Assembly: GCF_005406125.1 (NCBI RefSeq) | Contig: NZ_BIXZ01000003.1 | Span: forward strand, 186,001-250,000 | Direction: 5' to 3' | Source of the DNA: Haloarcula mannanilytica | GTDB lineage: Archaea; Halobacteriota; Halobacteria; Halobacteriales; Haloarculaceae | Length of the DNA: 64,000 nucleotides | Shown here: one piece after another, positions 42,706 through 44,116 of the stretch | Layout of the letters: every line of letters begins with the position of its first letter | How positions within the stretch are numbered: the stretch's first letter is position 1 | The notes under the pieces: model-generated | Databases searched by the model: none | The model's input: the letters and a program-made list of their open reading frames with translations, nothing else | Told to the model about the DNA's origin: nothing | Made by a program: the position numbers and the translations under genes

Positions 42706-42900
42706 AACGAAAGAAACGAACGCAACGAATAAAACGAACGCATTGATAGCAACGAGTGTGTTTACCTCAATGATTGTAACGAACAGTTGGTTTTAACTTC
42801 GTCGTAATCCTCTCACCGAGTGAAACGACCGCATCAAACGTGGCGAACTAAACGACCAAAACAACCAAAACGAACGAAACGAACACAACGAGATAAACGA
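42706..42900. repeat. Nine-base-period AACGA array, candidate centromere/operator
   Basis: AACGA starts at 42706, 42715, 42724, 42733, 42751 and 42778 (all multiples of 9 apart), then after a one-base shift in register at 42824, 42851, 42869, 42878, 42887 and 42896. Several missing slots are one base off (AATGA at 42769, AACAA at 42860). The array ends 6 bases before the parA start. The same pentamer with the same period recurs inside the partner gene at 43795-43880. Phased short repeats next to parA are typical of a parS/centromere bound by a small ribbon-helix-helix protein. Confidence 0.75.
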
Positions 42901-42905
42901 AGACA

Positions 42906-43724
42906 ATGGCCGACACCAATACCGCACGAATCACGGTGGCGAATCAGAAGGGAGGCGCTGGGAAGACGACTGACGTTATTCACACAGGCGGGGCGCTAGC
43001 TGCCCGGGGCTACGATGTCCTCCTGGTCGATATCGACTACCATGGGGGGCTCACCTGCTCGCTTGACTACGACGATCTGTACTACGATACCGACCGCACG
43101 ACGCTGTTTGACGTACTCGATTTCGACCAGATGGAGTCGGTGAACGACATCATCGTCGAGCACGAGGAATTCGACATCCTTCCCGCGAGCGAGAAGCTCG
43201 CGAACAACAAGAACATCCAGACCCTGCTTGAAGCGCCGAAAAGTCGGGAACGACTGGAGATGACTCTCGACGAACTCGACAAGGACTACGACTACATCAT
43301 CGTCGACACGCCGCCGTCCCTGAACGTCCTTACCGATAACGCCCTCGTCGCGACCGGGAACGTTGTCATCCCCGTCATTCCCGAGAAGCTCAACGCCAAC
43401 AGTCTCCAGATTTTCGCAAAGCAGCTGAGCTCCCTCGAACAGGCGTACGGAGACATCAATCGGCTCGCGATTGTCTGTAACCGTGTCGAGCAGAACGCCG
43501 AACACCGCGACACTATCGAGGAGATCAAGTCGGCGTACTCACTCCCAGTGTTCGAGATTCCGAAGCGGACCGATCTCTCCCAGTCAATTGGCGAGGGGGT
43601 GTCCGTCTTCGGCTTCGGGAAGGAGAACAAGCGCGTCGAGGATGCACGCGACCTGTTCAACGATATCGCCGACCTGTTCGACGAGACGTTCGAGAAGACC
43701 GCGCCTGAAGAGGTGGAAGCATGA
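42906..43724 (+). CDS. parA: ParA family partition ATPase
   Basis: The 272-residue protein has the deviant Walker A of ParA, NQKGGAGKTTDVIHTGG, switch/Walker B LLVDIDYHGG, and YIIVDTPPSLN. ParA binds DNA and ATP and segregates plasmid or chromosome DNA by interaction with a centromere-binding partner. The variation GKTTDVIHTGG in place of GKTTTAVNLG is familiar in haloarchaeal plasmid ParA proteins. Its stop overlaps the start of the next gene (ATGA), the classic parA-partner organisation. It sits among chromosomal genes, so it may mark an integrated plasmid or other element. Confidence 0.92.
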   Translation: MADTNTARITVANQKGGAGKTTDVIHTGGALAARGYDVLLVDIDYHGGLTCSLDYDDLYYDTDRTTLFDVLDFDQMESVNDIIVEHEEFDILPASEKLANNKNIQTLLEAPKSRERLEMTLDELDKDYDYIIVDTPPSLNVLTDNALVATGNVVIPVIPEKLNANSLQIFAKQLSSLEQAYGDINRLAIVCNRVEQNAEHRDTIEEIKSAYSLPVFEIPKRTDLSQSIGEGVSVFGFGKENKRVEDARDLFNDIADLFDETFEKTAPEEVEA

Positions 43725-44116
43725 CCGACGGTTGGGGCGACGCTTCCGGCATCGAGGGCAACTACGAAGAAGACGATGCGGTCGATTCCGACGAAACGAG
43801 TGAGGTGAGTGAAACGGTTGAAACCAGTTCATCGACCGAAACGACCGAATCGAGTTCAACGAGCGAAACGAGCGAAACGAAGACGAACATCAAGGACGAA
43901 TGGAACGGGCGGACGATATACATACCCGACGATGTCCTCGACGAGATGGAGGATACCTACCTCGAATCCCAGCTGAAGCTCCGCAAGGCGGGCCAGGACG
44001 AGTTCAAGAAGAACCGCCACTTCTACCCGCTACTCGTGCAGTTCGGTGTTGAAGCGCTCTCTGAGGCGGATCCTGAGGAAATCCAGACGCGGCTTTCGGA
44101 ACTCGGCGACGAATGA
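43721..44116 (+). CDS. Probable centromere-binding partner (ribbon-helix-helix-like), with Ser/Glu/Thr-rich N-terminus
   Basis: The 131-residue protein has an acidic Ser/Glu/Thr-rich region (about 25-50, repeats of S-E-T) and a C-terminal domain beginning RTIYIPDDVLDEMEDTYLESQLKL, a strand followed by helices that resembles ribbon-helix-helix DNA-binding proteins such as ParG or omega. Length, position after parA and the ATGA overlap support a partner role. The DNA that encodes the S-E-T region contains phased AACGA repeats. I infer it binds its own upstream array, and possibly sites within its own gene. Confidence 0.7.
   Translation: MTDGWGDASGIEGNYEEDDAVDSDETSEVSETVETSSSTETTESSSTSETSETKTNIKDEWNGRTIYIPDDVLDEMEDTYLESQLKLRKAGQDEFKKNRHFYPLLVQFGVEALSEADPEEIQTRLSELGDE
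43795..43880. repeat. AACGA array inside the partner gene
   Basis: AACGA at 43795, 43840, 43858, 43867 and 43876, with one-mismatch copies at 43813, 43822, 43831 and 43849, all on the 9-base period of the upstream array. Because nine bases are three codons, the DNA motif yields the S-E-T tripeptide run. Confidence 0.65.

Follow-up and report, generated by a model that had tools for sequence, protein, structure and literature searches.

The window, by which we mean the whole 64,000-nucleotide stretch of Haloarcula mannanilytica DNA analysed here, contains a parA gene followed directly, in the same operon and with a 4-nt overlap, by a small partner gene (Table 1). The encoded ParA starts straight at its P-loop domain, without an N-terminal HTH or other DNA-binding extension, and both this architecture and the position of the partner are those of type Ib partition systems. 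Plasmid records annotate the partner as 'hypothetical protein'; in searches against Pfam and NCBIfam it reached no family above cut-off, the only matches being PHROGs of unknown function. In size and lack of a Pfam family it thus differs from the HTH/CTPase ParB proteins of about 300 aa found in type Ia and chromosomal systems. Its acidic N-terminal peptide, MTDGWGDASGIEGNYE, probably contacts ParA.

Table 1. Features of the par locus, in positions of the window
Feature	Position	Strand	Description
Leader array, block 1	42706-42782	+	six AACGA, filling register positions 1-4, 6 and 9; 5' of the TATA-like element (putative promoter); conserved in family A loci
TATA-like element GGTTTTAAC	42789-42797	+	between the two leader blocks
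Leader array, block 2	42824-42900	+	six in-register AACGA plus one off-register copy; between the putative promoter and parA, ending 5 nt short of the parA start
parA	42906-43724	+	272-aa deviant Walker ATPase (NQKGGAGKTT); AAA_31 (E 9.6e-36), CbiA match, phrog_164 ParA-like
Partner gene	43721-44116	+	131 aa; start overlaps the parA stop (ATGA)
Acidic N-terminal peptide of partner	43721-43768	+	(nearly) invariant in the family A alignment, in contrast to the variable linker
Intragenic array	43795-43880	+	five exact and four one-mismatch AACGA in a 9-base register (three codons); encodes the S-E-T linker
Partner C-terminal domain	43877-44113	+	predicted strand and helices, ribbon-helix-helix-like
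Predicted DNA-reading strand WNGRTIYIP	43901-43927	+	its type changes with the array motif from family to family

The original prediction for this locus described 12 exact AACGA copies at a 9-base spacing, with one register shift, over the 195 bases just before parA (42706-42900), and our counts reproduce it. Copies start at 42706, 42715, 42724, 42733, 42751 and 42778 in block 1 and at 42824, 42851, 42869, 42878, 42887 and 42896 in block 2, each block keeping its own 9-base register with a single +1 shift between them (42778 to 42824 is 46 bases); the one off-register extra copy lies at 42873. When the upstream region was shuffled 5000 times with dinucleotides preserved, no shuffle matched either the copy number or the number of 9-spaced pairs. 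No other 5-mer in the entire 64 kb is as 9-periodic as AACGA (counted with its complement), whose 9-spaced pairs are absent from parA and occur only once elsewhere in the window. As judged from the sequence, the operon is preceded by a repeat array of the kind that precedes par operons in type Ib systems. The TATA-like element between the blocks is the probable promoter of the parA operon; a scan for sigma-70 promoters, a model irrelevant to archaea, gave no match.

Inside the partner gene, exact AACGA copies start at 43795, 43840, 43858, 43867 and 43876, all separated by multiples of nine, and four one-mismatch copies, also predicted originally, lie at 43813 (AACGG), 43822 (AACCA), 43831 and 43849 (both ATCGA). 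The array is translated as a Ser-Glu-Thr run (...TSETSET, codons GAA ACG AGC), so that the earlier equation of nine bases with three codons also stands.

Close homologues of this parA, which we call family A, were collected from many haloarchaeal genera by a genome-contig scan and from the loci of a domain-profile search, yielding 54-55 loci. In the set from the contig scan, the leader array was present at every locus and the linker array in each partner gene that was readable. All of the 54-55 loci retain both arrays, the exceptions being thin arrays: fewer than three in-register copies occur in the leader of one locus only (L053) and in the linker of another only (L151, two copies). Across 54 loci the leader holds 5-14 copies (median 11) and the linker 2-10 (median 7). 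The density of AACGA per kilobase is highest in the leader (53.8), followed by the linker (33.1); parA has 3.4, the remainder of the partner gene 2.7 and the opposite strand 0-1.3. The TATA-like element is present in 50 of 55 loci, most commonly 108 nt before parA, with on average 5.7 AACGA copies before it and 5.3 after it. In many families other than A, a box GTCTGACG/TCTGACGT is found just 5' of the TATA-like element (leaders of L042-L050, L140 and L158-L205).

The source genome carries a second family A par locus with the same motif on a different contig (L094, C10:92780-94256; the window locus, 42706-44116, is on C3), a situation that would predict cross-talk or incompatibility between the two. 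The same contig C10 encodes a VirB4-like ATPase (L093:1492-3726, contig positions 11491-13725), whose C-terminal tail (ATNGTNETSE) contains a 9-phased AACGA array. This array is seen in about 12 close homologues, most of which share contig and strand with a family A par locus; it is missing from homologues of 70-76% identity and may be an additional partition site. The genome's third par locus is directly preceded by a CRISPR-like array of direct repeats with a recurrent GTTACAGACGGACCCTTGTGGGGTTGAA-type unit (L095:4446-5534, contig C15).

A periodic motif inside a low-complexity coding region raises the question of whether selection acts on the DNA or on the peptide. Conceivably, the intragenic array could be the by-product of an S-E-T peptide that is itself under selection or prone to slippage, leaving the leader array alone functional; disordered linkers rich in S, T and E are common in haloarchaea, and the peptides themselves have a three-residue periodicity. 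Codon choice, however, speaks against this. When the linker of the window was redrawn with synonymous codons, the protein being held fixed, the redraws contained on average 0.29-0.57 AACGA, compared to the five observed, and none of 2000 reached five. Equivalent redraws with parA codon usage gave p < 0.005 in nearly all family A loci, with L028 the weakest at 0.0125; under the codon usage of the window's neighbouring genes, the weakest were L028 (0.019) and L053 (0.034). Glutamate preceding threonine in the linkers is encoded by GAA 182 times and by GAG 7 times, against 26% GAA and 74% GAG in parA, while ACG accounts for 65% of linker threonines (28% in the comparison) and AAA for 59% of linker lysines (17-22% elsewhere).

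The synonymous sites of the S-E-T segment, which the original prediction had singled out as informative, point in the same direction. In alignments anchored on the conserved NIK, the entropy at third codon positions of the motif is lower (0.82) than at second codon positions of the spacer (1.03), the reverse of the order that protein-driven conservation would produce. Moreover, the linker peptide varies (ETN, ETS, KTK, ETT, STS, KTN, GTS and others) while the DNA bases persist, and no homologue was found that keeps the S-E-T peptide without the AACGA bases. Finally, the logos of in-register units from the non-coding leader (377 units) and the linker (198 units) agree at all nine positions, spacer included, reading AACGARYRA. 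In family A the intragenic array is thus selected as DNA and is not a by-product of the peptide; these observations already contradict the by-product explanation there, and overall we regard it as highly improbable. The variable linker between the N-terminal peptide and the DNA-binding domain would, by analogy, be suited to hosting DNA sites, since it is free to vary.

Which protein might read the two arrays is suggested by the C-terminal domain of the partner. Its sequence follows the pattern of a strand (NGRTIYIP), a long helix, a KN turn and a second helix. AlphaFold2 modelled the 79-residue domain as a monomer with a pLDDT of 80 and helices at residues 18-37, 45-56, 58-63 and 66-76, the strand remaining unformed; prediction of the full-length partner was poor. 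Foldseek returned no match to solved structures at an E-value of 0.001, and VIA-align, PDB sequence and Pfam searches of the domain yielded no family. We do not count the Foldseek result against a ribbon-helix-helix (RHH) fold, because the strand of this fold forms only in the dimer. Considering the strand-helix pattern together with the link between strand and motif described below, the partner is probably an RHH protein.

Of the 391 haloarchaeal genomes sampled, 202, from 62 of 86 genera, had matches to a profile of this domain; about 80 further loci then served to pair ParA and partner in 25 ParA clusters. Across these families the 9-base period persists, as the original prediction would have it for related loci, while the motif differs (AACGA, CAAAG, CTAAG, CAAAC/CGAAC, CAAAA). 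Averaged over ParA clusters, identity at lag 9 in linker DNA is 0.478, compared to 0.26-0.32 at other lags; the corresponding value for the leader is 0.298, against about 0.255, and for parA 0.294. Compared with synonymous redraws, the linker signal is above z = 1.64 in nine of 23 clusters; in the others, peptide periodicity alone could explain the linker DNA. Halovirus phiH1 also encodes a ParA-partner pair of this family (L208, 30866-35093). Its linker contains CAAAG with 9-base periodicity, and a start site is annotated 5 nt upstream of parA. In a cross-family k-mer coupling test, leader and linker motifs match more often than by chance. Without family A the coupling is still significant, but a control with the 3' end of parA is equally strong (z 3.1 vs 3.0); we therefore do not rely on this coupling, which outside family A is only suggestive.

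The array motif changes together with the predicted DNA-reading strand of the partner. Partners with the strand WNGRTI are accompanied by 4.7 AACGA copies per linker and 9.7 per leader, whereas CAAAG goes with RKNVNM (3.7 and 3.0 copies, respectively) and RRNVNM (2.8 and 1.3), CTAAG with RPSVLM (2.7 and 1.3), CAAAC and CGAAC with GTYM-type strands, and CAAAA with KTALTM (3 and 3). With the domain body and ParA held constant in a partial Mantel test, the linker motif depends on the strand (r 0.17, p 0.011) while the body has no significant effect; the dependence of the leader motif on the strand is weaker (r 0.10, p 0.063). A further case is a group of four loci (the L160 group), whose domain body shares 69% identity with family B and 28% with family A, while the strand is 100% that of family A. 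Their linkers carry the A-type motif GAAACG rather than CAAAG, and all four leaders have CGTTTC at -20 and -11 relative to parA, in the orientation opposite to that of the linker copies. Judged by sequence, this group is a natural strand-motif swap, combining a CAAAG-type body with an A strand and an A motif. Halovirus ChaoS9 follows the same pattern, with the strand WNGRTIY, a family-B-like end and many GAAACG in the linker. The notion that ChaoS9 has a linker array only was dropped: three GAAACG lie at its annotated parA start. The motif of the arrays thus tracks the predicted reading strand and not the rest of the domain, a pattern that fits binding of both arrays by the partner.

Based on these results, we consider it likely that the locus is a ParA partition module of a haloarchaeal replicon, in which a dimeric, probably RHH partner with the 9-bp unit AACGARYRA coats both arrays. 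By analogy with omega on its 7-bp units, a partner dimer would read one 9-bp unit and polymerise along the arrays, one of them lying around the parA promoter and the other about 1 kb downstream, within the partner's own disordered N-terminal linker. As the DNA unit spans three codons, (E/K)-T-(S/N/K), the needs of DNA and protein would be met together. Binding of the partner around the TATA-like element would repress the operon, and the two arrays would jointly form the partition complex, to be moved by ParA via the conserved N-terminal peptide. Binding, the RHH fold, autoregulation and the centromere function of the arrays are thus what we infer for this module.

A broader proposal, to which we give slightly less than an even chance, is that the whole family carries its centromere within the coding sequence of the partner as a selected trait, such that the DNA specificity of the domain dictates the linker peptide and specificity and site form a single cassette. 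If this were true, a change in the recognition strand would force the linker to be rewritten, giving rise to new incompatibility groups, and the 9-bp unit would have the length of three codons because the array must also translate into an intact disordered linker.

Alternatively, the partner might bind the linker array for local gene control, by acting as a roadblock or by looping with the promoter, and the leader array would be the centromere proper. The linker array is indeed the shorter of the two, its distance of about 1 kb from the promoter is plausible for looping, and RHH partition proteins often repress their own operons (PMC9499535). On the other hand, intragenic sites of SegB are scattered over the chromosome (PMC12284271), and regulation alone does not obviously require an array that is kept across families. 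We consider this reading unlikely; local control and segregation are compatible roles for the linker array and do not exclude each other. It is improbable that the arrays are iterons, or a signal read by another protein, for example a replication initiator, and that their match to the partner is coincidental. Many direct repeats close to plasmid genes are replication iterons, and the genome contains Cdc6/Orc1 genes, one of them on contig C10; however, none was found on the contig of the window, the arrays lie around parA and in the partner gene instead of at a rep gene, and the motif shifts with the strand residues of the partner, the natural swap included. That the repeats act in mRNA, for example as sites for a translational regulator, is barely credible: transcription would cover block 2 and the linker array, but block 1 precedes the TATA-like element, the start site of phiH1 would leave almost no leader RNA in that virus, and the reversed leader copies of the L160 group suit a function in DNA, not in RNA.

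How archaeal plasmids and chromosomes build their centromeres was listed as an open question in a 2016 review of archaeal segregation (PMC5120986). For a module whose partner domain occurs in the 202 genomes mentioned above, the partition model proposes a concrete centromere, a binding protein and a recognition strand, and the natural strand-motif swap makes the specificity code testable. It would also be a case of a disordered linker shaped by a DNA site in its own gene. The original prediction knew of no description of such an organisation. For an array in phase with the codons of the binder's own disordered tail, our search of open papers likewise found none, which is not proof of absence, and this is the part that appears to be new. 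Partition sites within genes as such have precedents that the prediction did not mention: parS lies inside coding sequence in mycobacterial parA (PMC2346475) and in repABC replicons (PMC9040568), and SegB sites are about 83% intragenic in both species; they lie 5' of segA, and those of S. acidocaldarius are also found in segAB itself and in numerous further genes (PMC12284271). The intragenic parS sites, however, are single palindromes placed opportunistically and bound by HTH-type ParB, not periodic arrays matched to the binder's own linker.

Among described systems, delta-omega of pSM19035 is similar in having a small ParA, an RHH partner (here predicted) and tandem short non-palindromic repeats that overlap the operon promoter (PMC9499535). 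The earlier comparison with this system is apt as an analogy and only as such: pSM19035 has 7-bp WATCACW repeats, separate promoters and no reported array in the omega gene, whereas the window locus has 9-bp AACGARYRA units, one operon and an intragenic codon-phased array. Activation of ParA in pSM19035 requires at least four contiguous repeats (PMC9499535); the longest runs of exact consecutive units here are four in each leader block and three in the linker array, extended by one-mismatch units. TP228 ParFGH shares a ParA homologue, a small partner (an RHH protein in TP228) with a flexible N-terminal tail and an upstream array of degenerate repeats plus operator, but is built of tetramer boxes with AT-rich spacers, and the ParG tail supplies an arginine finger (PMC7308502); the window's partner lacks both Arg and Lys ahead of residue 54. 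Like the bacterial pCXC100 ParABS, a type Ib system whose centromere consists of direct repeats only (PMC5016525), the haloarchaeal locus uses direct repeats. Sulfolobus SegAB likewise pairs an archaeal ParA with an overlapping downstream partner, an RHH protein in that case, but is chromosomal, and its site is a single 13-bp palindrome, TCTAGASTCTAGA, with no tandem array and no tie to codons or to the tail of SegB; positions 42706-42905 of the window contain no TCTAGA and have direct 9-bp repeats instead. From its sequence, the motif makes the module a member of none of the described systems, and its mode of operation would be that of type Ib ParA-RHH systems and of SegAB.
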